Source: Aidingimonas lacisalsi (lineage in GTDB: Bacteria; Pseudomonadota; Gammaproteobacteria; Pseudomonadales; Halomonadaceae). From it: DNA of 64,000 nt. The DNA is taken from assembly GCF_008079445.1 (NCBI RefSeq), contig NZ_VRYH01000001.1, forward strand, positions 567,196 to 631,195. The letters run 5' to 3'. The notes under the pieces are model-generated. The model made no database searches. It was not told the origin of the DNA and saw only the letters and a program-made list of their open reading frames with translations. Both the position numbers and the translations under genes were made by a program. Below are positions 4,637 through 38,683 of this stretch, piece after piece (positions within the stretch are counted from its first letter, which is position 1; the number at the start of each line of letters is the position of its first letter).

Positions 4637-4658
4637 AATAACCTCTTATAATTGTTGT

Positions 4659-4746: not shown

Positions 4747-4791
4747 TCCTTCTCTTGCCCGAACGGCACCATGCGCCTTATCGGTGTGGGT

Positions 4792-5184: not shown

Positions 5185-5229
5185 GATTTGCCCTCCTGTA
5201 TTGCTGGTTGCTGACTTTTCGGATGCGAC

Positions 5230-6729
5230 TTAGTGGGATAAGGCGTTGTCACGCCCGTTGGAAATGTCCGCGGAGGCCGGGGCTGGAGAAAGCCGGACGT
5301 CACGGCGCAATAGCCGTCCGGCTCGCATTCCACTTGGCTCGCCGTGGCGATAACTGATCATGCCGTTGACGACGACCAGCTCAATGCCGCTGGCGAGTGA
5401 AACCGGGACGCTGTAGGTGGCGGTATCCTGAAGTCGTGCAAGCCCGAACAGCACCAGATCGGCGAAGGCGCCGACGCGGATGACGCCACGGTCCGTGAGC
5501 CCGAAGTTGGTCGCCGAGAGTCCGGTCATCTTGCGCACGGCCGCGCTCAGCGACAGCAGCTTCAGGTCGCGGCTGTAGTGGGCGAGCACGCGCGGGAAGG
5601 TGCCCCACAGACGGGGATGCGGATGCGGGTCGTTGGGCAGGCCATCGGAGCCGACCATCGACAGAGGATGCGATAGCACCAGGCGCATGTCCGCCTCGCT
5701 CATGTTGTGATAGACCGCGCCGGCTGGTTGCAGGCGTTTGGCGGCGTCCATCAGCGATAGATCCCAGGCCTCGGCAATCGCCTGCAGCGGCTGGCGAGCC
5801 ATCTCCGGGTGCGGGTCGGACCAGGTGATGAAGATGTCTATCTCGTCGGTGACCTGGCCCAGATCCAGCGTCGAGGAGCCAGCGGTATACGGGTAGCAGT
5901 CGCAATGCACACCATGGGAGCGTGCGGCATCGTCGAGCTTTACTAACGCCTTGGGCGCGTTGCCCCAGTTGCCGGCGCCGGCGCACTTGAGATGCGAGAT
6001 CACCAAGGGCGCCTGACCGTGCCGCGCGGTGGCGACGGCTTCGTCCATGGCCTCGATCAGCCCGGCGAATTCGTCGCGCAGATGTGTGGTATAGACGCCG
6101 CCGGCGCGGCCTACTGCCTCGACCAGAGCGTTCATCTCGGTGGTTGGTGCATGGAAGGCATTGCGGTAGGCCAAGCCCGAACTCATGCCCACGGCGCCCT
6201 CACCCAATGCTGTTTCCAGCTGCTCGCGCATGGCGGCGATCTCGTCGTCGCTGGCGGGGCGGTCGAAGCGATCCATCACCTGGCTACGAAGACTCGTGTG
6301 CCCGATCAGGGCCGCCACGTTGACACTGGGCACCGCCGCGTCGATTGCCTGGGCGTACGCGGCAAAGGTGGGGTAACGAAAGTCTTCCGCGCGGCCGAGC
6401 AAATTCATGGGATCGGGTACGTCGTCTGTGAGCGTGACCGGGCTGGCGCTGATGCCACAGTTGCCGACCACCACCGTGGTCACGCCCTGAGAGAGCTTGG
6501 GCAGCATCTCCGGGGTGCGGATGACGTTGGTATCGTCGTGGGTATGCACGTCGATGAAGCCTGGGGTGAGTATCAGGCCCTTGGCTTCGATCACGTCGTG
6601 GGCACTGGTGTTTTCCAGTTCGCCCATGGCGACGATTCGTTCCCCCTGGATGGCGACATCGGCGGTGAAGGCATCACGCCCGCTGCCGTCGATGATTGTG
6701 GCGTGCTGTATCAGTAAATCGACGTACAT
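5230..6729 (-). CDS. N-acyl-D-amino-acid deacylase (D-aminoacylase)
   Basis: 499 residues of the amidohydrolase superfamily. It hydrolyses N-acyl-D-amino acids to the D-amino acid and a carboxylate. The metal motif VHTHDD (H62, H64) and the bridging Cys in VVVGNCGIS (C91) match characterised D-aminoacylases; ISHLKCAG and the late Asp in MVGSDGLPNDPHPHP complete the zinc site. Start chosen at ATG 6729, with AAGGAG 5 nt upstream, instead of the earlier in-frame codon. It is 23 bp from the RpiR gene and 45 bp from ridA, indicating an operon. The protein is probably cytoplasmic, as no signal peptide is seen. Confidence 0.88.
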   Translation of the reverse strand: MYVDLLIQHATIIDGSGRDAFTADVAIQGERIVAMGELENTSAHDVIEAKGLILTPGFIDVHTHDDTNVIRTPEMLPKLSQGVTTVVVGNCGISASPVTLTDDVPDPMNLLGRAEDFRYPTFAAYAQAIDAAVPSVNVAALIGHTSLRSQVMDRFDRPASDDEIAAMREQLETALGEGAVGMSSGLAYRNAFHAPTTEMNALVEAVGRAGGVYTTHLRDEFAGLIEAMDEAVATARHGQAPLVISHLKCAGAGNWGNAPKALVKLDDAARSHGVHCDCYPYTAGSSTLDLGQVTDEIDIFITWSDPHPEMARQPLQAIAEAWDLSLMDAAKRLQPAGAVYHNMSEADMRLVLSHPLSMVGSDGLPNDPHPHPRLWGTFPRVLAHYSRDLKLLSLSAAVRKMTGLSATNFGLTDRGVIRVGAFADLVLFGLARLQDTATYSVPVSLASGIELVVVNGMISYRHGEPSGMRAGRLLRRDVRLSPAPASADISNGRDNALSH

Positions 6730-6752
6730 GTCGACTCCTTGCGCAATATGGT

Positions 6753-7616
6753 TCAATCGCCCAGCGGCTGGCGATTATCGCCGCCGCGATGGGCATCGAG
6801 GGTAATCTTGAGTCGTCGCAGCTTGTCGCGGGTACGGTCGCGGTGCCGCAGCGCCAGGCCCAGCGCCAGCATGTCAATGGCGGCCATCATGGCGTAGCGC
6901 GATGATGACGGGAAATAGATGTAGTCGGTCTCGCGGGCCGCCAGCGGCAGCGTGATATGGGCGACCTTGGCCAGTGGCGAACCGGTGGCGGTAATCGCCA
7001 GTACGCGCGCGCCGTACTGGCGCGCCAGCTCGGCCGCTTCGACGATCTCCGGGGTGTAGCCGGTGACCGAGAGCGCGACGACGACATCGTCAGGCTCCAG
7101 GGTCGAGGCGACCATGCGAGGCAGGAGTGCTTGCGGATAGGCACTGATGGCGTAACCGAGCCGCACGAGCCGGAATTGCATCTCCTGTGCCATTACCGTG
7201 GAGCCACCGCCGGCACCGAAGACCAGGATCTGGCGGGCATCGTCGAGCATCGCCACCGCTCCCTCGACGTCGGCCTGTTCCATCAGTTCGCGGTTGAGCG
7301 AGAGCGTCTGCGCGGCGGTATCGTAGATGACGCTGAGGCCGTCTTCTTCGCTGGCCTCATGAATGAAACGGCGGCCGGCAGCCAGAGCCCGTGTGAGGCG
7401 CGTTTTCAAGTCGCGTACATTGCGGCAGCCCACCGCTCGCGCGAAACGCGTCACTGTGGCGTCACTTACCTCGGCGCGTTTAGCGATCTCGCCGATGCTT
7501 GCCTCGGTGACGAAGTCGATGTCGTCATGAATCAGCGTGGCAACCTTTTTTTCCGACTCGCGAAGGCTCGGCAAGCAGGCGGTGATATGTGACAGGATGT
7601 CGAATTCTTGACTCAC
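6753..7616 (-). CDS. MurR/RpiR family transcriptional regulator
   Basis: 287 residues: an N-terminal RpiR helix-turn-helix (residues ~1-80, including IAKRAEVSDATVTRFARAVG) and a C-terminal SIS sugar-phosphate-type domain (~120-260, with VFGAGGGSTVMAQEMQ). The start is GTG 7616, preceded by only a weak ribosome site. It heads the D-aminoacylase-ridA-symporter operon and is divergent to the D-amino-acid deaminase gene, so it very likely controls both; the 103-bp gap between them holds direct repeats that could be its operators. The effector is not evident from sequence. Confidence 0.85.
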   Translation of the reverse strand: MSQEFDILSHITACLPSLRESEKKVATLIHDDIDFVTEASIGEIAKRAEVSDATVTRFARAVGCRNVRDLKTRLTRALAAGRRFIHEASEEDGLSVIYDTAAQTLSLNRELMEQADVEGAVAMLDDARQILVFGAGGGSTVMAQEMQFRLVRLGYAISAYPQALLPRMVASTLEPDDVVVALSVTGYTPEIVEAAELARQYGARVLAITATGSPLAKVAHITLPLAARETDYIYFPSSSRYAMMAAIDMLALGLALRHRDRTRDKLRRLKITLDAHRGGDNRQPLGD

Positions 7617-7644
7617 GAGAGGTCCGTATCCGATGGCTGATGTG

Positions 7645-7688
7645 TGTGTTAATAACTAACATATTTTTATTTTATGTGTTAGTAAATA
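7645..7688. promoter_or_regulatory. Direct repeat, candidate RpiR operator
   Basis: TGTGTTAATAACTA (7645-7658) and TGTGTTAGTAAATA (7675-7688) agree at 12 of 14 bases and start exactly 30 bp apart, about three helical turns. They lie in the AT-rich divergent gap between the RpiR gene and the deaminase gene. The first copy contains the dyad GTTAATAAC. Confidence 0.45.
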
Positions 7689-7719
7689 CACTAGAAGTAG
7701 AAAACGTGAGGAAAATACG

Positions 7720-8934
7720 ATGTCCGAACCCGCTCAATGGGAAATCGAAAAAGGTGTGCCGATCGTGCAGCCGGCGCATCTGCTGCATGACGTTCCGCTG
7801 CCGGCGGCGGCGATCTTCGAGGCACCGCTGGCCTATAACCTGGCCTGGATGCAGCGTTTCGCGGACGCTCACGGCGCCAAGTTGGCCCCGCATGGCAAGA
7901 CCACCATGGCACCGGCTCTGTTCAAGCGGCAGATCGAGGCGGGGGCCTGGGGCATAACGTTGGCGACGGCGGTGCAGAGTGTGGCGGCGCATGCTCACGG
8001 CATCGCGCGCGTGTTGATGGCCAATCAGTTGGTCGGGCGCCCCAACATGACGCTGGTAGCGGATGCCATCGAGCGCGGGCTCGAGTATTACTGCGTGGTG
8101 GATGACGTCGATAACGTGCGCGATCTAGGGGGGTACTTCGCCGAACGCGGCCTGACGCTCAATGTGCTGATCGAGCTGGGCATCGACGGCGGTCGTTGCG
8201 GGTGTCGCAATGTCGAGCAGGTCGAGATGCTGGTCGCGGCGATCAGAGAAGAGCCCGCCCTGGCGCTGGCGGGCATCGAAGGGTACGAGGGCATGATCGC
8301 CGGCAGCAATGAAGTGGCTGCTGTGCGTGCCTACGGCGAACGGCTGGTTGAGACCGTGCGCACTTTGCATGCCAGTGGTGTGCTCAAGCGGGAGACGCCG
8401 ATCGTCACCGCGTCAGGCTCCAAATGGTTCGATCTGATCGCCGAGGCATTCGACAAGGCGGAATTGCGTGAACACTACACCCCGGTGTTGCGGCCGGGCT
8501 GCTACGTGGTCCACGATCACAAGCTCTATGCCGGGGCGATGAGCGATGTGAAGGCGCGCCACCCTCGACTCGAGGGTGAATTGCAGCCGGCGCTCGAGGT
8601 CTTCGCGCATGTGCAGTCACTACCCGAGCCAGGTTTGGCCATCGTCGCACTGGGTAAGCGCGATATCGGTCATGAGCCGGATCTCCCGCTCCCGCTGCGC
8701 CGTTATCCGCGGAGTGCGGAAAGATCGGTGTCGGTCGACGTCAGTGGCTGGCGGACGACGCATATCATGGACCAGCATACGTTCCTAGCGATCCCTCATA
8801 ACGCTGATATCGCCGTGGGAGATGTGTTGGCCTTTGGGACGTCTCACCCCTGCCTGACCTTCGACAAGTGGCGCCGCATGTTGTGCGTCGATGAGACGCT
8901 GGAAGTGACGGAGGTGATGACGACGCACTTTTGA
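7720..8934 (+). CDS. PLP-dependent D-amino-acid deaminase (D-serine dehydratase-like)
   Basis: 404 residues. An N-terminal alanine-racemase-like barrel carries the PLP lysine in KLAPHGKTTMAP (K60); the C-terminal D-serine-dehydratase-like domain ends with SHPCLTFDKW (H376, C378), the zinc ligands known from eukaryotic-type D-serine dehydratases. Such proteins deaminate D-serine, D-threonine or related amino acids to 2-oxo acids. GAGGAAAATACG positions ATG 7720. It is divergent to the RpiR-aminoacylase-ridA-symporter operon, which would supply D-amino acids and clear enamines. Substrate preference, and D-threonine aldolase activity as the alternative, cannot be settled by reading. Confidence 0.85.
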   Translation: MSEPAQWEIEKGVPIVQPAHLLHDVPLPAAAIFEAPLAYNLAWMQRFADAHGAKLAPHGKTTMAPALFKRQIEAGAWGITLATAVQSVAAHAHGIARVLMANQLVGRPNMTLVADAIERGLEYYCVVDDVDNVRDLGGYFAERGLTLNVLIELGIDGGRCGCRNVEQVEMLVAAIREEPALALAGIEGYEGMIAGSNEVAAVRAYGERLVETVRTLHASGVLKRETPIVTASGSKWFDLIAEAFDKAELREHYTPVLRPGCYVVHDHKLYAGAMSDVKARHPRLEGELQPALEVFAHVQSLPEPGLAIVALGKRDIGHEPDLPLPLRRYPRSAERSVSVDVSGWRTTHIMDQHTFLAIPHNADIAVGDVLAFGTSHPCLTFDKWRRMLCVDETLEVTEVMTTHF

Positions 8935-9035
8935 GTGGCGCAAGGCATGCGGCACGCAAAACGACGCGATGTCTTGAGGTCGCGACCCCTCGTATGAGGG
9001 GCCGTGCTATATCAGGGGGTCATTGCGCCGTGGTG

Positions 9036-16990: not shown

Positions 16991-17479
16991 TCACAGGTGT
17001 GGCTCATTCCGTGTCGACGGCGGGATGTCCTGCCCGGCTGCGAAATCCAGCGTAGGCTCACCTCGATGCTTGCGCGAGGATGTGGCCGCGGGTCTGGCGC
17101 TACCGATGACCGCATCGTCGTTGTCCATCGGTCGCGCAGCACTGGTCCATGCCTTGTCTTCATCGTGAATGGCCGGCCGGCGCTCGAAAGAGCGCGTGAC
17201 GATGGCATTGGGAGAAAAGCCGGCGCGTAGCGCAGCCAGATGATGGGGAAGCAGCCAGAGCTCGGCTAGCAATCTGACGCCGAGCATGGCCAGGAGCAGT
17301 AGGCCGCCGCCTTGTGCCAGGGTCGGCCAGGCCGCAGTCCAGCCAGTGCCGTTCATCCAGGGAGTGTGAGGAAGAAGCCAGATGGTGCCGGCAGTCACCA
17401 GGCCAAGCTGGATGACCAGGTGACAACCCAACAAGGTGCGCCGAGCCAGTGGACGACGTGGGAAAAGAAACTGACGCAT
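16991..17479 (-). CDS. Hypothetical two-helix membrane protein
   Basis: 162 residues from ATG 17479, chosen because GGGAGG lies 7 nt upstream. Two transmembrane segments (about residues 16-36 and 52-74, LLLLAMLGVRLLAELWLLP) are followed by a hydrophilic, probably disordered tail with many Arg, Ser, Pro and Asp (residues ~95-162). The N-terminal half resembles DUF4282-type proteins only in size and layout, and I do not assign a family. It stands alone between the VanZ-like gene and the host-attachment gene. Confidence 0.6.
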   Translation of the reverse strand: MRQFLFPRRPLARRTLLGCHLVIQLGLVTAGTIWLLPHTPWMNGTGWTAAWPTLAQGGGLLLLAMLGVRLLAELWLLPHHLAALRAGFSPNAIVTRSFERRPAIHDEDKAWTSAARPMDNDDAVIGSARPAATSSRKHRGEPTLDFAAGQDIPPSTRNEPHL

Positions 17480-17713
17480 GGTGTAACCTCCCGGTAGAGC
17501 GATATCGACGGCGATGGTCGGTTGCTCCGGCATCCGTGCCGGTCAACGCATGCTACCCCAGAATGGCGCTCGCTGCAGGTGTCGATATCTGCCGACAGTC
17601 AACCTCGGCTGGACATGCTGTGTTTGACCAGCGTGATTGTGCTTGCCAATCTCCAGATGAGGAACATGTTTTGATGCCTCATGGCATCAGTACACGTCAT
17701 GGAGAACTCGCAA

Positions 17714-18142
17714 ATGACGACCTACATTGTGGTAGCAGATGCCGCTCGGGCACGTATCTTCACGCGTGACGGGATACGATTGACGGAACAGGAGAGTCTG
17801 GTGCATGCCGAGGGGCGCCTGCATGAAGGCGATCTGATTACCGATGGTCGTGGTGACATTCACGAATCGACGGCCACCTCAACTCGTTCTTCCGGGGGAG
17901 AAGACGTGGCTCTTCACCATCATGCTGAACTCTTTGCCAAGCAAGTGGCGGAACGTCTGTACCGCGCCCGCATCGAAAACCGCATGGCCAAGCTGATACT
18001 GGTGGCACCTCCGCAATTCCTTGGCCTGATGCGGGATAAGCTCGACGATGTCACGGGCAAACTGATTCTGCATTCATTGTCGAAAGATCTCTCCAAGGCA
18101 GCGCTGGAGACCATTCAGAACGCTGTCAGAGAACTACGCTGA
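17714..18142 (+). CDS. Host attachment family protein (Host_attach)
   Basis: 142 residues from ATG 17714 with GGAGAA 8 nt upstream. The family signature TTYIVVADAARARIFTRD opens the protein; LYRARIENRMAKLILVAPP and FLGLMRDKLDD mark the core. The family is named after a plant-associated protein needed for host attachment and is related in fold to the eRF1-domain/baeRF group; in free-living halophiles its role is unknown. No signal peptide, so cytoplasmic. A short gap then leads to the chemoreceptor genes, with no sign of cotranscription. Confidence 0.75.
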   Translation: MTTYIVVADAARARIFTRDGIRLTEQESLVHAEGRLHEGDLITDGRGDIHESTATSTRSSGGEDVALHHHAELFAKQVAERLYRARIENRMAKLILVAPPQFLGLMRDKLDDVTGKLILHSLSKDLSKAALETIQNAVRELR

Positions 18143-18249
18143 CTCGTTTCATTTGACCCTCAAGCCTGGGCTACCTCGGCCGATAGAAAGGGCACATCCG
18201 TTTGGTATCTACGCGGAAAACCCCCTTTCCTGTCAACGAGTGTGGCCCA

Positions 18250-20139
18250 ATGTTGTCTTCTCTGAAGAACCGAATCCTGACTACCTGTGTGGTGATCATC
18301 GCGCTGGCATTGGCGATAAGCGGTCTGGCCAGCTATCTCACCGTCAAATCGCATAACGATGAGCAAGTGGCGGGCAATCTGAACGCCATCGCTCAAGGCA
18401 ATGCTCAGGCGCTAAATCAGTGGTTTACCTCCAATGCCACCATGCTGACATCAGTCGAAGAGGCTGTGCAGGATGACGACCCGATGGCGTCGTTGAAGCA
18501 ACTAGCTCGGGCTGGCGACTTCATGTTGGCGTATGTCGGCTATCCGGAAGACGGTAGCACCGTGTTTTCGGATGAGTGGGAACCGCCGGAGGATTATGAT
18601 CCGCGCGAACGCCCCTGGTATCAGCAGGCTGTCGATGCCGGAGAAGCGATTGTCACGAAACCCTACACGGATGCGAATACCGGACAACTCGTGGTGTCGT
18701 TCGCCCATCCTGTGTATGACGGTGATGAATTGGCTGCCGTGGTGGGGGCGGATGTCGTCATCGATGACATTGTCGCTGACATAGCCGAAATCGAACCGAC
18801 GCCTTCGAGCTTTGCATTTCTTGTTGCTGATGACGGTACGCTGGTCGCTCATCCTGATGTGGATCTGAACCTGGAAAGCGCCACGGAACTGTCCGAGTCA
18901 TTGGACGCGCCGTATCTGGCGGCCATGAGGCAGGCCGAGTCTCCGCGCAAGCTGTCTCTGCAAGGTACGGACAAGCTACTACGCAGTGCGCCAGTTCATG
19001 GTACTGACTGGCAGTTGGTGGTGGCGCTGGATGAAAAAGAGGCGACGGCCGGACTCCGAGCCATGCTGGGGACCTCGACTATCACGTTTGTCCTGGTGGC
19101 CTTAGGGGCGGCGCTGGTACTGGGCATCGTGCTCAAGATGGCGTTTCGTCGTCTGCAGAATGTACGCGATGCCATGATCGACATTTCCAGTGGCGACGGG
19201 GATCTCACCCAGCGTCTGCCTGAAGATGGCAAGGACGAGGTGTCTCAGATCGCTGCCGCTTTCAACCGTTTCGTCGCCAAGATGGAAGAGGTGTTGATGG
19301 GTATCCGTGACAGCAGCGAATCGGTCCGTGTGGCGGCGACCGAGATTGCCAGTGGCGGCCAGGATCTGTCACGGCGCACCGACGATGCGGCATCGAGCCT
19401 GCAGGAGACCTCGGCGTCCATGGAAGAGATCACCAGCACGGTGGAGAACACCGCAAGCTCGTCGCGTGAAGCCAATGACCTATCGCAGTCGGCTTCGGAT
19501 GTCGCAGCGCGTGGTGGCGAAGTAGTCTCCCGGGCGGTAGAGACCATGGATGAGGTTACGGCCTCGTCGCGGCAGATCGCCGACATCATCCAGACCATGG
19601 ACAACATCGCCTTCCAGACCAATCTGCTGGCACTGAATGCCTCGGTGGAGGCGGCGCGTGCCGGTGAGCAGGGGCGCGGCTTCGCCGTGGTCGCCGGTGA
19701 GGTGCGTCAGCTGGCCAACCGCAGTGCCGAGGCGGCCAGCGAGATTCGCGGCTTGATCGACACCTCGGTGTCACGTACCGAAGAAGGGGCGAAACTGGTG
19801 CGTTCGGCCGGTGAGACGATGAAGGAGATCGTCGAGAGCATCAGTCGGGTGACCGGTGTGCTGGGCGAGATTTCCTCGGCGGCGGGTGAACAGAGCGACG
19901 GTATCGGCCAGGTCAACGTGGCGGTGGCGGAGCTGGATCGGATGACCCAGCAGAATGCGGCGCTGGTCGAGGAATCGACCACGGCGGGCGAGCAACTCAA
20001 GGCGCAAGCGGATCGTCTGGCTGAGGCAGTGGGTGCCTTTACCTTGTCGGCGTCATCTTCAGGAACACCTCGTCGCACCAACACGCTGCCTTCAACCCAG
20101 CAAACCACCCATCAAGAGTCGAGTGAACATGCAATTTAA
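18250..20139 (+). CDS. Methyl-accepting chemotaxis protein with periplasmic Cache domain
   Basis: 629 residues. A membrane helix (~10-32), a periplasmic dCache-type sensor (~35-270, with [16 protein letters not shown], the pattern of amino-acid or carboxylate-sensing Cache domains), a second helix (~278-300), HAMP (~300-355), and a signalling hairpin whose tip contains [23 protein letters not shown] 18250 gives a proper positively charged start and membrane helix; an earlier in-frame TTG adds 16 unconvincing residues. Ligand unknown. The next chemoreceptor starts inside its last codons. Confidence 0.9.
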
Positions 20140-22260
20140 ATCCCTGCGCGGGTTTGTCGTGGTCATGGCGGGTGCTTGCCTGCTATTAGTGGCAACGACC
20201 TTGGTGGTGTATGCCGTGTTCGTCACCGATCGTACCCAGCATACGGTGGCGTCACACACCGAGGAGCTCCTTGAAGGAGTCATCGATGAGCGTTTGACAG
20301 CATTGGTCTCGAATCAGGCCGGGCGTATTCAGCGTGAGTTGGAACAGGCACTGTTCTGGCTGAACAATTGGCCGATACCAATGCCCTGATGGGGGATAGG
20401 GACCGGGATGGCGAGTCTCAGTTCTCGTTGAGTCGTGGCGAGCTCTCCTACTTGGTGCGCAACACCGTGGAACAGAACCCCTCTTTGCTGGATGCCTTCA
20501 TTGGTTGGGAACCGAACGCGTTCGGTGACGATGAGGCCTTCGAAGGGAGAGAGGCGCAGGGCTATGATGACTCTGGCCGCTTCATGCCCTGGTGGTACCG
20601 TGACGAGAACGGCGATATCGACGTGCTGCCATTGGGCGAGACCATGGAGAGTGAAGAGGTCCAACCCGGTGGCATGCGAGAAGGTGAATACTATCTCTGC
20701 CCACGGGAAACCAAGGCTCCCTGTGTCATTGACCCGGCTCCATACGACTACGGCGGTGAGACGTTGTTGGTGACTTCCTTCAATGTCCCGGTCATGGTCA
20801 ATGATGAGTTCAAGGGTGTCGCTGGCGTCGATCTGTCACTCGACTTCATTCAGGAGCGGCTGGCGGCGGCGAACCAGGAGTTGTACGACGGTGCCGGCGA
20901 AATGGCCCTGGTCGCCTCGGAGGGCGGCCTTGTTGCCCACACAGGGAATGACAAGGCTCTGGGTGCGTCTGCTGATGAGGTGCTGGATGCATCGTCGTTG
21001 AGCCGTCTCCAAGAGGCTCGACAGAGTGATGAGCCGGTCAGTATCAACGAAGCGGGTGTGCTCGAACGTTACCACGCTTTCTCGATAGGCGATACTCAGC
21101 AGCGTTGGGTGCTGATGGTAACGCTACCGGAGCAGGCCGCACTGGCGGAGCTGGCCACGTTGCGGACACGACTCGATGAACAGCGCCGCACGGATATTCT
21201 CGGCATGATTGGTGTCGGCTTGCTGGTGACGATAGTGGGATTGATCGCCATCTGGGGGGGTGGTTCGCATATCGCCAAGCCTTTGCGCCTACTGGCGGGT
21301 CGCATGAGGGGCATCGCCAGTGGCGATGGTGACTTGACGCAGCGCCTGCCTGTCAGAGGACGTGATGAAACGGCCGAGCTGGCGACTCAGTTCAATGCCT
21401 TCGCCGACAAGATCAATGACGTGCTGCTGGATGTCCGTGACAGCAGCGGATCGGTACGTGCGGCGGCGACCGAAATCGCCAGTGGCGGCCAGGATCTGTC
21501 TCGGCGTACTGATGAGGCGGCTTCCAGCCTGCAGGAGACATCGGCGTCGATGGAAGAGATCACCAGCACGGTCGAAAACACGGCCAGCTCGTCGCGTGAG
21601 GCCAATGAGCTGTCGCAGTCAGCATCCCGTGTGGCAGCACGCGGCGGTGAGGTGGTTTCCCAGGCAGTGAAGACAATGGAGGACGTGACGGCGTCGTCGC
21701 AGCAGATCGCCGACATCATCAAGACCATGGACAGCATCGCTTTCCAGACCAATTTGTTGGCGCTCAATGCGTCGGTCGAAGCGGCTCGTGCCGGTGAGCA
21801 GGGGCGTGGTTTTGCGGTGGTCGCCGGCGAAGTTCGCCAGTTGGCGAGCCGTAGCGCCGAAGCGGCGGGCGAGATACGTCAGCTGATCGATACTTCGGTA
21901 GCGCGGACCGAAGAAGGTGCCAGACTGGTGCGCACGGCCGGGGAGACGATGGATGACATTGTCGATAGCGTCAGCCGGGTGACCGAGGTTCTGGGCGAGA
22001 TCTCGTCGGCAGCCGGTGAGCAGAGCGAGGGTATCGGTCAGGTCAATGTAGCGGTGGCCGAACTGGATCGCATGACGCAACAGAATGCGGCGCTGGTCGA
22101 GGAGTCGACGACGGCGGCGGAACAACTCAAGGAGCAGTCGGATCGTCTGGCGACCATCATCAGCGGTTTCACTCTGGCTGATCGACAGGCAAGTAACGAG
22201 CGAGGGTCGATGGCATTGCCAGCGTCGCGACAGCACGACACAAGTGTGATCGGAAGCTAG
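20129..22260 (+). pseudogene. Second methyl-accepting chemotaxis protein, broken by a one-base frameshift
   Basis: Starts at ATG 20129, overlapping the previous gene by 11 bp, and encodes [19 protein letters not shown] (membrane helix) up to ELEQAL, after which the frame runs to a stop at 20387-20389. From about 20356 the continuation lies in another frame (LAEQLADTNALMGDR...) and stays open to 22260: Cache domain with PWWYRDENG and YDYGGETLLV, HAMP, and signalling tip [15 protein letters not shown]. Adding one C at about 20355-20357 would restore FLAEQLADTNAL. The rest is uncorrupted, so this is a recent inactivation or a sequencing error. The signalling half closely matches the upstream gene. 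Confidence 0.85.
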
Positions 22261-22287: not shown

Positions 22288-23214
22288 TCAGGGCAAATAG
22301 GGCAGATCAATCTGGTCGCTGCGCTCGATTCCCTCGGTCATCTGACGACATAAGCGCAGGAACTCACGCATGCCTGTAGTCAGGTATTTGTGGCGGTGCC
22401 AGATGAAGCTGAACTGACGCCGTAGATCGAGCTCTGGTGTGTCGATCGGGACCAGGCTGCCGCGCCGGAAGGCATCACGCAACGCCAGACGCGATACGCA
22501 CCCTATGCCGATACCGGACTCCACGGCACGCTTGATTCCTTCGGTATGCTCCAGTTCCAGCAAGATGTTGAAGCGGCCTCGGCGATGGCGCATGGCATGT
22601 TCCAATGTCAGGCGTGTCCCCGACCCCTGCTCCCGCATGATCCAGTTTTCCCGCAGCAGGCGGTCCATTTCCAGTTTTCCCGCTTTGGCGACGGGATGAT
22701 CGGGCGAGCAGAAGACCACCAGCTCATCTTCGACCCAAGGTTGCAATACCACATCGTCGTCCTGGCAATCGCCCTCGATCAAACCGACATCCAGCTCATG
22801 CTGTATGACACGTTCGATGACCACTCGGGTATTGCGTACCTGGAGTTGCACGCGGCTTTCCGGATAGCGTTGCAGAAAATCGCTGATCAGCAAGGTGGCC
22901 AGGTAGTTGCCGATGGTCAGTGTCGCTCCGACATCCAGTGAGCCGATACCTCGCTGACCGCGCAACAACTCCTCGATCTCTTCGCCGCGGTCGAGAAGCG
23001 CAACGGCCTTGGGAAGGATCTGAAATCCCAGTGCATTGAGTTTCAGACGCTTGCCGATGCGGTCGAGCAACTGACAGTCGAACTGCCGCTCCAGCTCGGC
23101 CAACGCCGTACTGGCAGCCGATTGTGACAAGGCCAGGGCGCGGGCTGCACGGGAGACACTTTCGTACTGGGCGACAGCGACGAAGACCTCGAGTTGGCGA
23201 AGTGTATAGCGCAT
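22288..23214 (-). CDS. finR: LysR family regulator, FinR-like
   Basis: 308 residues. The N-terminal winged helix is MRYTLRQLEVFVAVAQYESV followed by SRAARALALSQSAASTALAEL; the C-terminal effector domain follows. Start ATG 23214 with AGGAG 7 nt upstream; the longer open frame adds non-coding promoter codons. It is divergent to fpr, the same pairing as FinR-fpr in pseudomonads, where FinR activates fpr under superoxide or sulfite stress (established for Pseudomonas; inferred here). A perfect dyad sits 24 bp upstream of its start. Confidence 0.8.
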   Translation of the reverse strand: MRYTLRQLEVFVAVAQYESVSRAARALALSQSAASTALAELERQFDCQLLDRIGKRLKLNALGFQILPKAVALLDRGEEIEELLRGQRGIGSLDVGATLTIGNYLATLLISDFLQRYPESRVQLQVRNTRVVIERVIQHELDVGLIEGDCQDDDVVLQPWVEDELVVFCSPDHPVAKAGKLEMDRLLRENWIMREQGSGTRLTLEHAMRHRRGRFNILLELEHTEGIKRAVESGIGIGCVSRLALRDAFRRGSLVPIDTPELDLRRQFSFIWHRHKYLTTGMREFLRLCRQMTEGIERSDQIDLPYLP

Positions 23215-23237
23215 CCATAAACTCCTGAAGAAAGGTA

Positions 23238-23254
23238 TATCTATAGCATAGATA
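23238..23254. promoter_or_regulatory. Dyad in the finR-fpr gap, candidate FinR site
   Basis: TATCTAT-AGC-ATAGATA, perfect 7-bp arms with a 3-nt centre, containing a T-N11-A LysR-type core (T23240 to A23252). It sits where an autoregulated LysR gene usually has its operator. Confidence 0.45.
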
Positions 23255-23360
23255 AGTGTTATCCATATAATCCATTTAACAGATATTCTGGCGGCACTTA
23301 GAATGACTAACAAGATGAAGCTGCAGATTTTATTCGCTTCTGGAATATGAGGAGTCCCTT

Positions 23361-24137
23361 GTGAGCAAGTTCGCCTTGGAAGACGTACTGAGTGTCCATC
23401 ATTGGAATGACACTCTGTTCAGCTTTCGGACAACCCGTGAACGTAGCCTGCGCTTCAAGAATGGGCAGTTCGTCATGATTGGCCTCGAGGTCGAGGGCAA
23501 GCCCTTGATGCGCGCTTACTCCATCGCAAGTCCCAACTACGAGGATCACCTCGAGTTCTTCAGCATCAAGGTTCCCGATGGCCCGCTGACATCGCGATTG
23601 CAGCACTTGCAGGTCGGTGACCAGATCATGGTGAGTCGCAAGCCCACCGGTACCTTGGTGACCGACGACCTGTTGCCCGGACGTAATCTGTTTCTGCTGT
23701 CTACCGGGACGGGGCTGGCACCTTTCATGAGTTTGATTCAGGATCCCGAGGTGTATGAGCGTTTCGAAAAAATCGTGCTGATTCACGGGGTTCGGACCGT
23801 CAGCGAACTGGCGTATGCCGACTTCATCCAAGGCGATCTGCCCGCTCACGAGTATCTGGGAGAGGAAATCAGCGAAAAGTTGATCTATTACCCCACCGTG
23901 ACCCGGGAAGATTTTCATACCCAGGGGCGTCTGACGGATCATATCCGTTCCGGCAAATTGTTCGAGGACACCGGAGTGCCGGCGCTGGATCCCAAGCAGG
24001 ATCGTGCAATGATCTGTGGCAGTCCGGCCATGCTCGATGAATCCAGTGCCTTGCTCGACGATATTGGCTTCAATATTTCACCACGCATGGGTGAGCCAGG
24101 CGACTATGTGATCGAGCGCGCCTTCGTCGAGAAGTAA
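23361..24137 (+). CDS. fpr: Ferredoxin--NADP+ reductase
   Basis: 258 residues of the bacterial FNR family. FAD-binding motif RAYSIAS (residues ~54-60), NADP-binding GTGLAPF (~116-122), C-terminal YVIERAFVEK as in the Azotobacter/Pseudomonas subclass. Exchanges electrons between NADPH and ferredoxin or flavodoxin and supports iron-sulfur and oxidative-stress repair. The start is GTG 23361 with AGGAG 7 nt upstream. It is divergent to finR and closed by a strong terminator. Confidence 0.93.
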   Translation: MSKFALEDVLSVHHWNDTLFSFRTTRERSLRFKNGQFVMIGLEVEGKPLMRAYSIASPNYEDHLEFFSIKVPDGPLTSRLQHLQVGDQIMVSRKPTGTLVTDDLLPGRNLFLLSTGTGLAPFMSLIQDPEVYERFEKIVLIHGVRTVSELAYADFIQGDLPAHEYLGEEISEKLIYYPTVTREDFHTQGRLTDHIRSGKLFEDTGVPALDPKQDRAMICGSPAMLDESSALLDDIGFNISPRMGEPGDYVIERAFVEK

Positions 24138-24170
24138 CTGCCTTCCTGACGGTTTCACTTGATGTCATGA

Positions 24171-24207
24171 CGCCCTCGCCGGAACCCAGCGGCGAGGGCG
24201 TTTTTTG
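24171..24207 (+). terminator. Rho-independent terminator after fpr
   Basis: Perfect 10-bp stem CGCCCTCGCC / GGCGAGGGCG (24171-24180 and 24191-24200), 10-nt loop, then TTTTTT. Confidence 0.92.
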
Positions 24208-24235
24208 AGGCATCGGTCGCTACCGAAACATGCAT

Positions 24236-24265
24236 TAGACATTGGTCTACTAGACTATAGTCTAG
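24236..24265. promoter_or_regulatory. Tandem dyads TAGAC-N4-GTCTA, unknown operator
   Basis: TAGAC-ATTG-GTCTA (24236-24249) and TAGAC-TATA-GTCTA (24251-24264) are two copies of the same inverted repeat 15 bp apart; the second lies within a perfect 16-bp palindrome, 24250-24265. They sit between the fpr terminator and the TRAP operon. The pattern does not match GntR of the gluconate type, so a second regulator is inferred. Confidence 0.5.
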
Positions 24266-24324
24266 GTGTTGTCAATATGATTTTCATTGACGCCAGACTC
24301 TGCCAAACCTAACCTTTCCATGGC

Positions 24325-24338
24325 TGTTACCGGTAACA
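24325..24338. promoter_or_regulatory. GntR-type operator (gluconate regulon)
   Basis: TGTTACC-GGTAACA is a perfect 14-bp palindrome and matches the E. coli GntR operator consensus ATGTTACCSGTAACAT at 15 of 16 positions when the flanks are included. It lies 90 bp before the TRAP binding-protein start, and a LacI-type GntR homologue is encoded at the end of the same cluster. A weak promoter TTGACG (24287-24292), 17 bp, TAACCT precedes it. Confidence 0.8.
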
Positions 24339-24428
24339 TTGGTAGCACTCCAAAAGAGATCCAGCAACGTATAAGCAACCCAAACAGTTGCCATCGACAA
24401 TGAACAACGATCACGGGAGATAATCGCC

Positions 24429-25508
24429 ATGTCAGCAATCTGGCGGACTTCACTCACACTCGCTGGTGCCGCTACGCTTACCGTAGGTATGGCTCAGGCG
24501 CAGGAACCCGACCTTTCCGATCCCCCCGAGATCGACGGTGAAGTCATCACCGAAGACTTGGGCAGCCATACACTGCGGCTCGGTATCGGCTTGGCCGAGA
24601 GCTCACCACAGTACCTTTCCAGCCAATACTTTGCCGATATCCTGGATGAGCGGACCGAAGGACGCATTTCCGTCGAAGTCTTCCCCAACAGTCAGTTGGG
24701 TGACGATGTCCAAATGATGGAAATGCTGCAGACCGGCTCGCTGGATATGTCGTATCCATCCACATCGCCCGCCACGACATACGTGCCGGAACTGGCGGTA
24801 TTCGACCTGCCATTCCTGTTGCCTACGCGTGAAGCGGCAACCGAGGTCATGAAGAGCGATGTTGCACAAGAGATGCTGGATTCCTTTGAAGGAACAGGCA
24901 TCAAGGCGTTGGCCTTCTCGGAAAATGGTTATCGTCAATTGACGAATAGCGTGCGTCCGGTGGATTCGCCGGAGGATGTCGCTGGTATCGATGTCGGTGG
25001 TTTGACCATCCGCACGATGGAGAACGACGTACAGCTGTCGATCTGGGAAGCGTTGGGCGCTAACCCGACACCGATGGCCTTCGGCGAGGTTTTCTCGGCG
25101 ATGGAACAGGGGGTCATCGATGGTCAGGAAAACCCCTGGAGTACCATCCTGACGTCCAACTTTCATGAAGTGCAGGACTATGGCTCTGAGACTCGCCACG
25201 TCTATACACCGTTCATCCTGATGATGTCCGAGCGGACCTGGGACAATCTCGATCCGCAGTATCAGGACCTGGTACAGGAAGCGGCGCGCAAGTCCGCAGA
25301 CTACGAGATCCAGTTGGCTGCCGAGTATGACGACTGGTCACGCGAACAGCTCGAAGAGCGTGGCATGGAAATCACGCGTCTGGACGACGAGCAAGTCGCT
25401 GAATTTCAGGAAGCCGTAGAAGGTGTCTACGACGAATGGGCGCCGGAAATTGGCGAGGACGTGGTTGAAGACGTTCAAAGTATCGTGGAAGACGTACAGA
25501 GCGAGTAA
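24429..25508 (+). CDS. TRAP transporter substrate-binding protein (DctP family), gluconate cluster
   Basis: 359 residues with a signal peptide (residues 1-24, ending AQAQ). Periplasmic DctP-type solute receptor: the family Arg region GLTIRTMENDVQLSIWEALG (about 195-214), then PTPMAFGEVFSAMEQGVIDGQENP. An acidic insert follows the signal peptide, and the C-terminus is very acidic (EIGEDVVEDVQ), as in halophile secreted proteins. GGGAGA precedes ATG 24429. It is first in a run with DctQ, DctM, gluconokinase and GntR, with a GntR operator upstream, so gluconate or a related sugar acid is the inferred ligand. Confidence 0.88.
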   Translation: MSAIWRTSLTLAGAATLTVGMAQAQEPDLSDPPEIDGEVITEDLGSHTLRLGIGLAESSPQYLSSQYFADILDERTEGRISVEVFPNSQLGDDVQMMEMLQTGSLDMSYPSTSPATTYVPELAVFDLPFLLPTREAATEVMKSDVAQEMLDSFEGTGIKALAFSENGYRQLTNSVRPVDSPEDVAGIDVGGLTIRTMENDVQLSIWEALGANPTPMAFGEVFSAMEQGVIDGQENPWSTILTSNFHEVQDYGSETRHVYTPFILMMSERTWDNLDPQYQDLVQEAARKSADYEIQLAAEYDDWSREQLEERGMEITRLDDEQVAEFQEAVEGVYDEWAPEIGEDVVEDVQSIVEDVQSE

Positions 25509-25588
25509 GCGCTCGAGTCAAGCCACGTTGTAACCACCTTGTCCGGGCAAGGGGACTGCTCCCTTGCCCGTGATTGAATGGAGCGTCT

Positions 25589-26152
25589 ATGGACTCACGC
25601 GATAAGCCGATCGCTGATGCGGCATCGATCGACGACCCCAATCGTCGCCCTCTGGAACTGGATATCGAGGCCAAGAAAGGTCCGGCGCCATTCCGTTATC
25701 TGACAGTGATCATGGAGCACGTGATCGCTGTCCTGTTGGTCGCACTGATCGTGTCCGTTTCCAGTAATGTCATCGCGCGGTCGCTGCTGAACAATTCATT
25801 GCCGTGGGCCGATGAGTTGGCTCGAATGCTCTTCATTTGGTTGATTTTCCTAGGTGCCGCCGCCGCATTCGCTCGTTACGAACACGTGGCTGTCGATTAC
25901 GTCGTGCAAAAGCTCCCGACTCGCTTTGCGTACGCCATGTACTTCATTCAACACCTGATCATCACCGTTTTGATGGGCATCGTTCTGTATGGAGGTAGCC
26001 TGATTCTGGGGCGCTCTACCGGGCGGACGGCTATTCTCGGTGTGCCTTGGAACTTGATCAATATCTCGATGCTCGTGTGTGCCCTGTTCATCGCCGCTTT
26101 GGCAATCTGGCGTGCTTGGCAGAGCCTGACCTTGATGCGCAGGAGGACCTAG
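25589..26152 (+). CDS. TRAP transporter small permease (DctQ family)
   Basis: 187 residues, four membrane helices after a ~35-residue hydrophilic N-terminus; conserved SNVIARSLLNNSLPWADELA and HVAVDYVVQKLP are the DctQ hallmarks. Start ATG 25589 (MDSRDKPIADAAS) with GGAG 6 nt upstream. It lies between the binding protein and DctM (4-bp gap) and works with DctM in the inner membrane. Confidence 0.88.
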   Translation: MDSRDKPIADAASIDDPNRRPLELDIEAKKGPAPFRYLTVIMEHVIAVLLVALIVSVSSNVIARSLLNNSLPWADELARMLFIWLIFLGAAAAFARYEHVAVDYVVQKLPTRFAYAMYFIQHLIITVLMGIVLYGGSLILGRSTGRTAILGVPWNLINISMLVCALFIAALAIWRAWQSLTLMRRRT

Positions 26153-26156
26153 CGAC

Positions 26157-27440
26157 ATGTTGTGGATTTTTCTTGGTATTCTTCTGGCGTCCATCATCCT
26201 GGGTTTGCCAATCGCATTCGGTCTTGGTGTGGCCGCGGTGGTCATGGCAGTCCTTTCGGACATTCCGCTATCCATTCTAGTCGAGCAATCGATTCGCGGG
26301 GTCAATAGTTTCCCGTTGTTGGCGATTCCCTTCTTTATCCTGGTCGGCGAGGTCATGAGTGCAGGCGGTATCGCACGTCGCTTGATGGACCTTGCCGGTG
26401 CCTTGGTGGGCTTTATTCGCGGTGGCCTGGGTCAAGTGGCGATCACGGGCTCGATGTTCTTCGGTGGTATCAGCGGCTCAGCGGTTGCCGATACAGCCGC
26501 GACGGGGTCCATGATGATCCCGTCGATGAAACAGCAGGGCTACTCGGCGCCACATGCGACGGCGATAAATACGGTATCCTCCGTGATCGGCATTATCATT
26601 CCGCCGTCGATCCCGTTGATTCTTTACGGCATCGTGACCGAAACGTCGATCAGTCGCCTGTTTATTGCAGGTATCGTCCCCGGCCTGATGATCGGTTTCG
26701 CGTTGATGGTAACGACCTTCATCATGTCCAGCCTTGAACATAGCGGCAAGACCCGTCGCTTCCGCTGGGATCTGCTATGGCAGACATTCCGTTCCGCGTC
26801 ATTGGCACTGATACTGCCGATCATCGTCATTGGCGGCATTATCACCGGTATGTTTACTGCAACGGAAGCGGCCGTTGCTGCGCTGTTATACTCCTTGTTC
26901 ATCTCCGTGGTGATCTATCGCGAGATTCATCCGCGTGAGTTGTGGGGCATGTGCATTCGCACGGCTCGTCTCACCGGTATGGTGCTGCTGTTATTGGCAT
27001 TCGCCACGGTGATCGCTTGGTTCCTGACGATCAACATGGTACCTCAGACACTGGTGACTCAGGTGCAGGCCCTGACTCAGGATCCGTTCACCTTGTTGTT
27101 GATCGTCTCGGCATTGTTACTGGTGGTTGGGCTGGTGATGGACCTGACACCGGCGATGGTGATCATGGCACCGATGCTGACGCCGATCGTTGAAGCCGTT
27201 GGTATTGACCCGGTGTATTTCGGGGTGCTGATGGCCTTCATTCTGGGTGTTGGTTTGCTGACGCCACCGGTTGGCACCTGCTTATATGTAGGTTGTGGCG
27301 TCGGTCGCGTCACGATGGAAGCCTTGGTGCGAGCCATGTTGCCCTATTATGTTGCATTGCTGGTGGTATTGTTCTTGCTCATCATGTTTCCGGGCGTCGT
27401 GACCTGGTTGCCCAACCTGACACAGGTCAGTGGCAGCTGA
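26157..27440 (+). CDS. TRAP transporter large permease (DctM family)
   Basis: 427 residues, about 12 hydrophobic helices; sodium-coupled transport subunit in the inner membrane. DctM signature segments: NSFPLLAIPFFILVGEVMS, ITGSMFFGGISGSAVADTAA and GFGLGVGLLTPPVGTCLYV-like MAFILGVGLLTPPVGTCLY near the end. Starts 4 bp after dctQ, and its stop is 1 bp before the ATG used for the gluconokinase, indicating one transcript. Confidence 0.9.
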   Translation: MLWIFLGILLASIILGLPIAFGLGVAAVVMAVLSDIPLSILVEQSIRGVNSFPLLAIPFFILVGEVMSAGGIARRLMDLAGALVGFIRGGLGQVAITGSMFFGGISGSAVADTAATGSMMIPSMKQQGYSAPHATAINTVSSVIGIIIPPSIPLILYGIVTETSISRLFIAGIVPGLMIGFALMVTTFIMSSLEHSGKTRRFRWDLLWQTFRSASLALILPIIVIGGIITGMFTATEAAVAALLYSLFISVVIYREIHPRELWGMCIRTARLTGMVLLLLAFATVIAWFLTINMVPQTLVTQVQALTQDPFTLLLIVSALLLVVGLVMDLTPAMVIMAPMLTPIVEAVGIDPVYFGVLMAFILGVGLLTPPVGTCLYVGCGVGRVTMEALVRAMLPYYVALLVVLFLLIMFPGVVTWLPNLTQVSGS

Positions 27441-27441
27441 C

Positions 27442-27978
27442 ATGGGAGGGCATTTGCACACGGTCACGCATCGTATTCTGGTCATGGGGGTTTCCGGCTG
27501 TGGCAAGACCCATATCGGGCAACACCTTGCCGCTCAGTTGGAGGCTGACTTCATCGACGGTGACGATTACCACTCGCCATCGAGCATTGCCAAGATGGCG
27601 AACGGCCAGCCACTCAATGATGATGATCGTCATGAGTGGTTGCAGACATTGGCCGGCCTTTTCGAGAGCTATCGCCAGCGTGATGCGTCGGTGGTAATCG
27701 GATGTTCGGCGCTGAAACGGCGCTATCGGGAAACGTTGCGATGTGGTGACCCCGGCCTGGCCATTCTTTATCTGAAGGGCAGCCGCGAATTATTGCTGGA
27801 TCGTCTGGCGCAGCGTTCCGATCACTTCTTCAAAGGGAGTGGCATGCTGGATAGCCAGCTCAATGACCTGGAACCGCCGGATGAGGTCAAGGCGCTTGGC
27901 CTGGATATCGCCTTGCCACCTCAACGGATCGTCTCCGACTTCCTCCAGTGGCTGACTATTCAACGGCCGATAGACTAG
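27442..27978 (+). CDS. gntK: Gluconokinase (GntK type)
   Basis: 178 residues. P-loop kinase phosphorylating D-gluconate to 6-phosphogluconate. Walker A GVSGCGKT, then FIDGDDYHSPSSIAKMANGQ (the gluconate-binding segment), CSALKRRYRETLR and RSDHFFKGSGMLDSQLNDLE, all typical of GntK. The start is uncertain: ATG 27442 just after the dctM stop, GTG 27430 overlapping it, or TTG 27454 behind GGGAGGG are possible. It identifies the TRAP system as probably a gluconate importer, feeding the Entner-Doudoroff or pentose phosphate routes. Confidence 0.92.
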   Translation: MGGHLHTVTHRILVMGVSGCGKTHIGQHLAAQLEADFIDGDDYHSPSSIAKMANGQPLNDDDRHEWLQTLAGLFESYRQRDASVVIGCSALKRRYRETLRCGDPGLAILYLKGSRELLLDRLAQRSDHFFKGSGMLDSQLNDLEPPDEVKALGLDIALPPQRIVSDFLQWLTIQRPID

Positions 27979-28043
27979 CGTGACCCGGCGAAACGCCCTG
28001 ATACTATGATTTTCCGCTCATATTGCACCGTGATTTCATCGTC

Positions 28044-29039
28044 GTGAAAAAGAAACGTCCGACATTACAGGATATTGCCGATCGGGTTGGCGCGACGAAA
28101 ATGACGGTCAGCCGTTGTCTGCGTGACCCGACAACGGTATCGGAAGGACTGCGAGAACGGATATTCGCAGCGGCAGAACAAGTCGGCTATATCCCCAATC
28201 GTGCGCCCGATCTCCTATCCAAGGCAACGAGCCGCTCGATAGGGGTGTTGGTTCCTTCACTCACGAATCAAGTGTTTGCGGATGTCATTGTCGGTATCGA
28301 AATGGTGACCGAGCCTGGCGGCTACCATCTCATGCTGTCCCATTATGGATATAGTGAACAGTTGGAGGAACGCAGTCTGGCGTCACTGCTCTCCTATAAC
28401 GTCGACGGAGTCATCCTTTCCGACAGCCGGCATACGCAGAGAACTCGTCGTATGCTCGAAACGGCAGGTATACCTGCCATCGAGATCATGGACACATGCC
28501 TTCCTCCCCTATATCAGGCCGTCGGATTCGACAATGTGCAGGCCTCTCACGATATGGTCTCTGAAATGATCCGGCGAGGACGTCGGCATATCCTGTATCT
28601 GGCAGTTCGGCTGGATGAGCGAACCCGACAGCGTGAAAAAGGCTATCGGTCAGCCATGGAGGCACATGGCCTTACCCCCATCACGCTACAGAGTACGCGC
28701 CGCTCATCCTATAGTGTCGGAGCGGAACTGATGGCTCAGATATTGACGGACTATCCTGATGCCGATGGGATCTTTTGTACCAATGACGACGTGGCCGTCG
28801 GGGCCTATTTCGAATGCTTGCGTCGTCATGTACCGGTACCTCGGCAGATGGCGATTGCCGGGTTCCACGGTCATGATGTCGGGCAGGTGATGGCACCACG
28901 ACTGGCGAGCGTCGTGACGCCACGAGAAGCGGTCGGCTCTCGGGCCGCGAATGAGTTACTGTCGCGGATTCGAGGTGAGCCCGTCAAGGAGACGACGATC
29001 GACTTGGCCTATCGCATCGAAGTGGGGGGGACGCTTTAA
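28044..29039 (+). CDS. gntR: Gluconate repressor GntR (LacI family)
   Basis: 331 residues. LacI-type DNA-binding head KKKRPTLQDIADRVGATKMT (residues 2-21), hinge, and periplasmic-binding-like effector domain. Large stretches such as YIPNRAP, SLTNQVFA, GFDN, CTNDD and AIAGFHGHDVGQVM agree with E. coli GntR as I recall it. Start taken as GTG 28044 (VKKKRP); TTG 28023 is the alternative, and neither has a strong ribosome site. It lies 65 bp after gntK. The palindrome at 24325-24338 is its expected operator; gluconate should release it. Confidence 0.88.
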   Translation: MKKKRPTLQDIADRVGATKMTVSRCLRDPTTVSEGLRERIFAAAEQVGYIPNRAPDLLSKATSRSIGVLVPSLTNQVFADVIVGIEMVTEPGGYHLMLSHYGYSEQLEERSLASLLSYNVDGVILSDSRHTQRTRRMLETAGIPAIEIMDTCLPPLYQAVGFDNVQASHDMVSEMIRRGRRHILYLAVRLDERTRQREKGYRSAMEAHGLTPITLQSTRRSSYSVGAELMAQILTDYPDADGIFCTNDDVAVGAYFECLRRHVPVPRQMAIAGFHGHDVGQVMAPRLASVVTPREAVGSRAANELLSRIRGEPVKETTIDLAYRIEVGGTL

Positions 29040-29103
29040 CCACGTCCCCGATGATGGACAGGGCTACGTAAAAGGAATGGTCTGAGAGGGCAGGCCGTCT
29101 GCG

Positions 29104-29493
<390 letters not shown>

Positions 29494-29575
29494 CTAGTGT
29501 CACGCCCGACATTATGTAACATCCAGCATGATGATGGGATAGCGGTTTACCAGCATACACCGGTTGGGAGAGGGA

Positions 29576-29601
29576 ATAAAAAAGGCCCCCAAACGGGGGC
29601 C
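29576..29601 (-). terminator. Rho-independent terminator after amtB
   Basis: On the minus strand GGCCCCC-GTTT-GGGGGCC (29601 to 29584) is followed by TTTTTT. It ends the glnK-amtB transcript 34 bp after the amtB stop. Confidence 0.92.
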
Positions 29602-29635
29602 AGGGGAGCACGCCAGCTCACTCGGTATATCGCCG

Positions 29636-30889
29636 TTATTTCTTGGTGGCGATGTTGAATTCGGGATAGGCTTCCAAGCCGCATTCGGCCAGATCGACCC
29701 CTTCGTACTCTTCTTCTTCGGTAACTCGGACACCCATGATGGCCTTGATGATCAACCAGACGACCAGGCTGGCCAGGAAAACCCAGGCGAAGATACCGAT
29801 GATACCGATGATTTGTGCACCGAAGGAGGCGCCACCATTCGACATGGGGACGACCAGCACTCCCCATATGCCGACGACACCGTGAACCGAAATGGCACCG
29901 ACCGGGTCATCGAGCTTCAGCTTATCCAACGCCACGATCGAGGCGACGACGATCAGACCGCCTATGACACCGATGATGGCTGAGCCCAGTGCGGAAGGTG
30001 CCAGCGGCTCGGCGGTGATGGCCACGAGGCCGGCAAGGGCACCGTTCAAAGCCATGGTCAGGTCGGCTTTGCGGAACCACAATTTCGCGAGGATCAGGGC
30101 GGCGATCACGCCTCCAGCGGCAGCGGCATTGGTGTTCACGAACACTTGTGCCACGTTGTTGGCCGATGCGCCGTCAGAGAGTTTGAGCTCCGAACCGCCG
30201 TTGAAACCGAACCAGCCCATCCACAGGATGAAGGTGCCCAGCGTAGCCAATGGCATGTTGGAACCAGGAATGGCATAGATGCTGCCATCCTTGCCGTATT
30301 TCCCCTTGCGAGGACCAAGTACCAGCACACCGGCGAGTGCGGCGGCTGCACCAGCCATGTGGACGATACCGGAACCGGCATAATCTGAATAGCCGATCTC
30401 GGCCAACCAGCCTCCGCCCCAGGTCCAGTAACCCGAAGTGGGGTAGATGATGCCGGTCATGACGACGGCGAAAGCGAGGAATGCCCACAGCTTCATGCGT
30501 TCTGCCACGGCACCGGATACGATCGACATGGCGGTAGCCACGAAGACGACCTGGAAGAAGAAGTCGGAGCGCAGTGAATAATACGGAGCATCATCATTGC
30601 CACTCGTGATCGCATCGACAGTATTTTCGGCACCGATCAGGAAGCCCAGGTTGGGAATGAAGCCCCCACCACTGCTGGAATACATCAGGTAGTAACCGAG
30701 CAGCAGATACATGGTGCAGGCAATGGCGAACAAGGCAATGTTCTTGGTCAGTATCTCGGCGGTGTTCTTGGCGCGGACCATGCCTGCTTCGAGCATGGCG
30801 AAACCGGCAGCCATCCACATGACGAGAACGCCACAAAGTAAGAAGTAGAATGTATCGAGCGCGTATGTCAGCTCTGTCAGTTCGGACAT
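29636..30889 (-). CDS. amtB: Ammonium transporter AmtB
   Basis: 417 residues, 11 transmembrane helices, inner-membrane trimer. DTFYFLLCGVLVMWMAAGFA and MLEAGMVRAKNTAEIL open the protein; GSGIVHMAGAAAALAG carries the first pore His and a second His is in AISVHGVVGIWG. No cleaved signal peptide is apparent. Start ATG 30889 behind AGGAGA. Follows glnK by 111 bp, the conserved glnK-amtB pair in which GlnK blocks the channel when nitrogen is plentiful. Confidence 0.94.
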   Translation of the reverse strand: MSELTELTYALDTFYFLLCGVLVMWMAAGFAMLEAGMVRAKNTAEILTKNIALFAIACTMYLLLGYYLMYSSSGGGFIPNLGFLIGAENTVDAITSGNDDAPYYSLRSDFFFQVVFVATAMSIVSGAVAERMKLWAFLAFAVVMTGIIYPTSGYWTWGGGWLAEIGYSDYAGSGIVHMAGAAAALAGVLVLGPRKGKYGKDGSIYAIPGSNMPLATLGTFILWMGWFGFNGGSELKLSDGASANNVAQVFVNTNAAAAGGVIAALILAKLWFRKADLTMALNGALAGLVAITAEPLAPSALGSAIIGVIGGLIVVASIVALDKLKLDDPVGAISVHGVVGIWGVLVVPMSNGGASFGAQIIGIIGIFAWVFLASLVVWLIIKAIMGVRVTEEEEYEGVDLAECGLEAYPEFNIATKK

Positions 30890-38570: not shown

Positions 38571-38683
38571 ATGGAGACTCTCGTCAGCGACGCGACGGTG
38601 TCTACGAACCGATATTCCACCCTTCTATCCTCAAGCACCCTGAACTGGTCGACACCGATGTCTGGCCACCTAAGGATGCCTGA
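38571..38683 (+). pseudogene. Possible small protein gene with a one-base frameshift
   Basis: GGGAGAAAAAAGCC leads to ATG 38571, which reads METLVSDATV before losing coding character. In another frame from 38594 to TGA 38683 the product is DGVYEPIFHPSILKHPE then LVDTDVWPPKDA, which looks like a genuine small protein but has no start codon. One extra base near 38590 would join them into about 37 residues. I recognise no family. The remaining bases of 38421-38758 hold no other feature; no TPP riboswitch was found before thiS. Confidence 0.4.

Follow-up and report, generated by a model that had tools for sequence, protein, structure and literature searches.

Tandem chemoreceptor genes and the frame break

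The window, a stretch of 64,000 nucleotides that corresponds to positions 567196-631195 of contig 1 in the draft genome of Aidingimonas lacisalsi (3.95 Mb in 27 contigs), carries two chemoreceptor genes in tandem, with the 3' end of the first overlapping the start of the second (20129) by 11 bases. The first gene (hereafter, the partner receptor) is intact, and the second is interrupted by a change of reading frame. The features that describe this arrangement are as follows.

18202..20139, + strand: intact tandem chemoreceptor with dCache_1, HAMP and MCPsignal domains; its start is possibly the ATG at 18250
20129..20389, + strand: N-terminal piece of the broken receptor, comprising transmembrane helix 1 and the first Cache residues; the frame ends at the TGA of 20387-20389
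20353..20358, + strand: location of the one-base frame break, where the sequence forms no homopolymer
20387..20391, + strand: TGATG, in which the stop of frame 1 overlaps an in-frame ATG of frame 2; a restart here is possible, unproven
20338..22260, + strand: remaining receptor frame with the dCache part, transmembrane helix 2, HAMP and the MCP signalling domain

The ATG at 20129 opens frame 1, and a different frame carries the rest of the receptor uninterrupted as far as the stop at 22260, so the first transmembrane helix, the dCache domain, the second transmembrane helix, HAMP and the signalling domain do not lie in a single frame. An earlier note on this DNA, made from the letters alone, had proposed that the N-terminal and main parts of a Cache-type chemoreceptor are placed in different frames, that one additional base near 20356 would rejoin them and that the main parts stay open past the break. 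All three proposals were borne out by the reading frames and by comparison with the one genome that represents the rest of the genus here, that of Aidingimonas halophila DSM 19219, in which contig NZ_FNNI01000003.1 (476,553 bases) was the top match (97%). The 762-aa open reading frame of A. halophila matched the window in two frames, with residues 1-134 at 95% and residues 134-757 at 92%, and the switch between the frames fell at 20353-20356. Because both pieces are collinear with one A. halophila gene, the two-frame pattern is not a product of chance. In the DNA alignment, a one-base gap lies at the switch; the next gap, at 20398, comprises 6 bases and is in-frame, no gap of any kind and hence no frame-changing one was found from there to 21879, and compensating pairs of one-base gaps follow only past the tract of high identity described below. 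No homopolymer occurs at the break site, the sole run of at least four identical bases within 20301-20420 being five G at 20391.

The homologous receptor of A. halophila occupies the same tandem place, downstream of the same partner receptor, and its protein is 98% identical to that of the window over the sensor part; unlike the window copy, it is open throughout, in one frame of 765 codons from stop to stop. Does the gene nevertheless begin naturally after the break? As the earlier note had pointed out, homologues with such a late start would speak against a lesion. They were looked for in two sets of relatives. In the first, found in the genome collection with patterns covering the stretch just after the break and including A. 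halophila itself, the frame runs at least 80 codons upstream of the match in all 80 of the 80 loci among the matches listed, and every one of these loci has a strongly hydrophobic stretch upstream at a near-constant distance. The second, a search of whole genomes of relatives, gave 29 loci, and in each of the 23 checked (the six left out were weak matches) the frame likewise continues upstream with a hydrophobic stretch. No split at the position of the window break and no homologue starting after it was found in the 80 listed or the 23 checked loci, and a natural late start was therefore rejected.

The search of the A. lacisalsi genome for a second copy of the broken sensor returned only the tandem partner, as a weak match (E 2.2e-8). 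Three relatives have frames that end early downstream, at 85 (Halomonas olivaria TYRC17), 251 (Ectothiorhodospira magna) and 328 (a third relative, L008) codons past the start of the match; thus, the receptor family has other copies that are possibly broken or short.

Domains and putative ligand class

Downstream of the break, three regions of the receptor can be delimited.

20389..21180, + strand: ligand-binding part; the closest solved relative is the ligand-binding domain of PctD (7prq, E 5.4e-81)
21268..21417, + strand: HAMP domain (PF00672), domain profile over the cut-off
21607..22074, + strand: MCPsignal domain (PF00015), over the cut-off and outside the high-identity tract

The sensor part of the broken receptor gave a partial dCache_1 match of 35.3 bits, under the gathering score of 45, and an MCP-like_PDC_1 match of 23.5, under the threshold of 27; in NCBIfam, only below-cut-off matches were obtained for both tandem receptors. 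In the sequence search against solved structures, the E value of 5.4e-81 for 7prq was followed by 1.1e-27 for the runner-up. According to excerpts of PMC9040839 and PMC10104139, the 7prq structure shows Pseudomonas aeruginosa PctD together with choline. PctD (PA4633; 7prq, 7prr), a choline/acetylcholine chemoreceptor, is thus the best solved relative by sequence of the window ligand-binding part, with the difference that the window frame is broken after the first membrane helix.

Which PctD residues are retained? Among the 15 PctD positions that were mapped, from a residue list drawn from excerpts of the same two papers (PMC9040839, PMC10104139), eight are identical in the window (R103, F124, W155, Y189, A204, Y206, S217 and D235), five are similar (F188 to Y, M169 to L, M215 to V, D171 to E and S172 to T), and two differ more strongly (D133 to G and A168 to P). 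The positions associated with amine sensors, namely R103, W155, an aromatic residue at 188, a hydrophobic residue at 215, S217 and D235, are represented in the window by R, W, Y, V, S and D, respectively. The exception is D133, a residue that pairs with R103 in the added helical element and that the excerpts describe as notably conserved in amine sensors (PMC9040839, PMC10104139). The window has G here, and we therefore do not claim formal membership of the receptor in dCache_1AM; among the 80 relatives listed, 49 have D at this position, 21 have G, 8 have A and 2 have N. Judging from these residues, the intact form of this PctD-like receptor likely senses amines.

Profile searches of the A. 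lacisalsi genome found 13 MCP domains over the cut-off, 2 CheW-domain matches and 3 flagellin-N matches, so chemotaxis as such seems to be present in this species.

A high-identity tract shared with A. halophila

The break lies within a segment whose similarity to A. halophila departs sharply from that of its surroundings.

18100..21520, no strand: interspecies recombination tract, ~97.6% identical to A. halophila versus a background of 77-80%; edges approximate

One edge lies just before the partner receptor, and the other lies in the signalling half of the broken receptor. The control stretches on the two sides are 77.1% (17050-18049) and 80.1% (22300-29999) identical to A. halophila, and identity per 250 bases is 70-85% over most of the part of the window that can be aligned. 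Synonymous sites follow the same pattern: dS in the tract is 0.048 for the partner receptor (629 codons), 0.117 for the first piece of the broken receptor (74 codons) and 0.087 for the second piece (385 codons), compared with 1.14 and 1.26 in the nearby dxs and a dctP gene outside it, that is, synonymous divergence is 10-26 times lower in the tract than in these control genes. Bounded high identity that includes synonymous sites and is set in a diverged background is the pattern expected of a recombination tract. High identity and low dS against such diverged surroundings record an exchange well after the species split, by homologous recombination between the two Aidingimonas species or from a common donor.

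Chemoreceptor signalling domains are generally conserved, and it could be argued on these grounds that strong purifying selection on the receptors produced the identity of the tract in the absence of recombination. We consider this exceedingly improbable, given that synonymous sites are near-identical in the tract and saturated outside it, and that the tract stops before the second signalling domain, with identity of only ~73-88% per 100 bases past the edge. This explanation concerns the tract, not the break.

A wider survey, in which 464 kb was compared and 338,835 bases were aligned to A. halophila, revealed 9 runs of at least 1 kb in which every 250-base bin is at least 94% identical. High-identity tracts are therefore not unique to the receptor locus, and some of them may be merely conserved genes. 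In the window, positions 4001-9000 are 98.7% identical to A. halophila, and positions 2001-4000 are mixed (84-97%). The 4001-9000 segment covers part of an SSF-family sodium:solute symporter gene, an amidohydrolase, an RpiR-type regulator and a D-serine dehydratase-like gene, and it is likely another exchange tract. Outside the window, at 227196-254696 of the same contig 1, six runs with 96-99% identity to A. halophila are clustered within 27.5 kb.

The tandem pair also differs between the species in its internal similarity. The two signalling domains of the window are 80% alike, and those of A. halophila are 94% alike; the signalling domain of the second A. halophila receptor is closer to that of its own tandem partner (94%) than to that of the window (85%). 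This difference in within-pair likeness shows that gene conversion between the tandem receptors has taken place as well, in at least one of the lineages.

Mutation, sequencing error or a working split gene

A key question is whether the missing base reflects a true mutation or was dropped in the course of sequencing or assembly. The earlier note had left both possibilities standing, as a recent lesion or an assembly error, and the data fit this statement: the sister gene is open, the relatives are in frame, and there is no excess of protein-changing differences. The dN/dS ratios are 0.10 and 0.13 for the first and second pieces and 0.18 for the intact partner, values that rest on small counts and in which half of the differences should fall on the A. 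halophila branch. No relaxed selection is visible in these ratios, and their similarity between the broken and the intact receptors implies that the break is either recent or an artefact. Between the two, we lean towards a true recent mutation, as a matter of judgement rather than computation.

To set the break against the rest of the assembly, 464 kb of the same contig was compared with A. halophila using open reading frames of at least 150 aa, at least 60% identity and at least 70% coverage. Three of 259 conserved A. halophila genes were flagged as frame-broken in A. lacisalsi, and among these only the receptor is a clear gene in which two parts with strong matches are joined. The second flag, with its first 40 residues at 65% versus 96% for the rest, was taken for non-coding sequence upstream of a gene and the third, at 67% with an internal stop, for a shadow frame, both from the table alone. 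The comparison in the other direction flagged 4 of 266 genes. Flags for internal stops fell on 24 genes of the A. lacisalsi contig and on 18 the other way, many of them near the assumed start. When open reading frames of at least 80 aa were compared with the sister contig around the window, 13 flags were raised one way (the receptor included) and 9 the other; by identity and position, those other than the receptor were judged to be shadow frames or upstream extensions. With three flags in 259 genes, one of them convincing, the notion of an error-ridden assembly was rejected.

A single error, in which the real chromosome is intact and the draft has dropped one base, is the less probable reading. 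All of the remaining receptor sequence is open, the part after the break shares its low dN/dS with the tandem partner, exactly as would be expected of an artefact, and the break is the sole convincing one among the 259 compared genes, as a lone error would be. However, dropped-base errors cluster in homopolymers, and the break site is not one; furthermore, the surrounding assembly has no excess of frame breaks, and the missing base falls within the sensor domain, away from the signalling part that is common to the neighbouring receptor.

It is also conceivable that the split gene functions as it stands, with a restart at TGATG or a frame slip yielding a receptor without helix 1 or some full-length product. 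The in-frame ATG of the TGATG overlap (20387-20391) opens 623 codons, and the excerpts of PMC10104139 describe, in Actinobacteria, an intracellular dCache that stands alone and senses amines. Against a slip, the open stretch shared by both frames (20338-20389) is devoid of an X XXY YYZ slippery heptamer, which was not found in frame in the codons from 20333 to 20387. By the established topology, a Cache domain deprived of helix 1 would presumably not be exported in the usual manner. In addition, the split is absent in A. halophila, the 80 listed loci and the 23 checked loci, and is thus not a conserved device. Programmed frameshifting was rejected for want of both a heptamer and conservation in relatives, and a functional split gene of any kind seems very unlikely.

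Under the preferred reading of a true mutation, the following history can be proposed. The ~3.4-kb tract came to be shared by both Aidingimonas species through homologous recombination long after their split. The gene for a PctD-like, probably amine-sensing membrane receptor would then, or together with the exchange, have lost one base just after the first transmembrane helix, and so recently that the gene has no other visible sign of decay. Ribosomes that begin at the normal start would stop at 20389 after 86 residues, and no complete receptor would therefore be made. In annotation, the PctD-like receptor should not be counted as functional in A. lacisalsi without checking.

The position of a receptor pair in an exchanged tract, with an edge in the second signalling half, suggests a plausible route for the movement of sensor domains between species. 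A broader and rather speculative extension, which we regard as improbable, is that related halophiles trade sensor modules, the recombination ending in the signalling half of the second receptor and a useless foreign sensor then being lost by a point break. If this were true, exchange through the tandem pair would leave a species with a sensor of foreign origin joined to its own signalling tail.

Pseudogenes with a single frameshift and tracts of homologous recombination are both known in bacterial genomes. The present locus resembles the former in that one loss changes the frame of a gene that is whole in other respects, and the latter in its sharply bounded high identity, and it differs from known examples only in the particular gene and in the coincidence of the break with the tract. 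Taken by itself, it is an ordinary case, either of a gene lost recently or of a slip in sequencing, in a mildly interesting recombination setting. A literature phrase search found no paper naming Aidingimonas lacisalsi, and a further search found none combining chemoreceptor, pseudogene, frameshift and dCache.

A second site in the window, for which the earlier note had assumed the same kind of one-base loss, proved to be of a different nature.

38571..38683, + strand: relic of a Na:alanine symporter gene, with its head joined to its tail in different frames and a net loss of 1,369 bases

At the same place, A. halophila has a 525-aa sodium:alanine symporter with PF01235 matches in both halves (E 4.1e-72 and 1.1e-76), of which the window retains the first bases and the last ~30 codons. 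The net deletion of 1,369 bases relative to the A. halophila gene therefore lends no support to a series of one-base losses. A count of 2 in 38 genomes for the small gene at 38571 refers to the frame of the head and not to that of the symporter tail, and it carries no information about conservation. Two other members of the symporter family have open frames in the A. lacisalsi genome.
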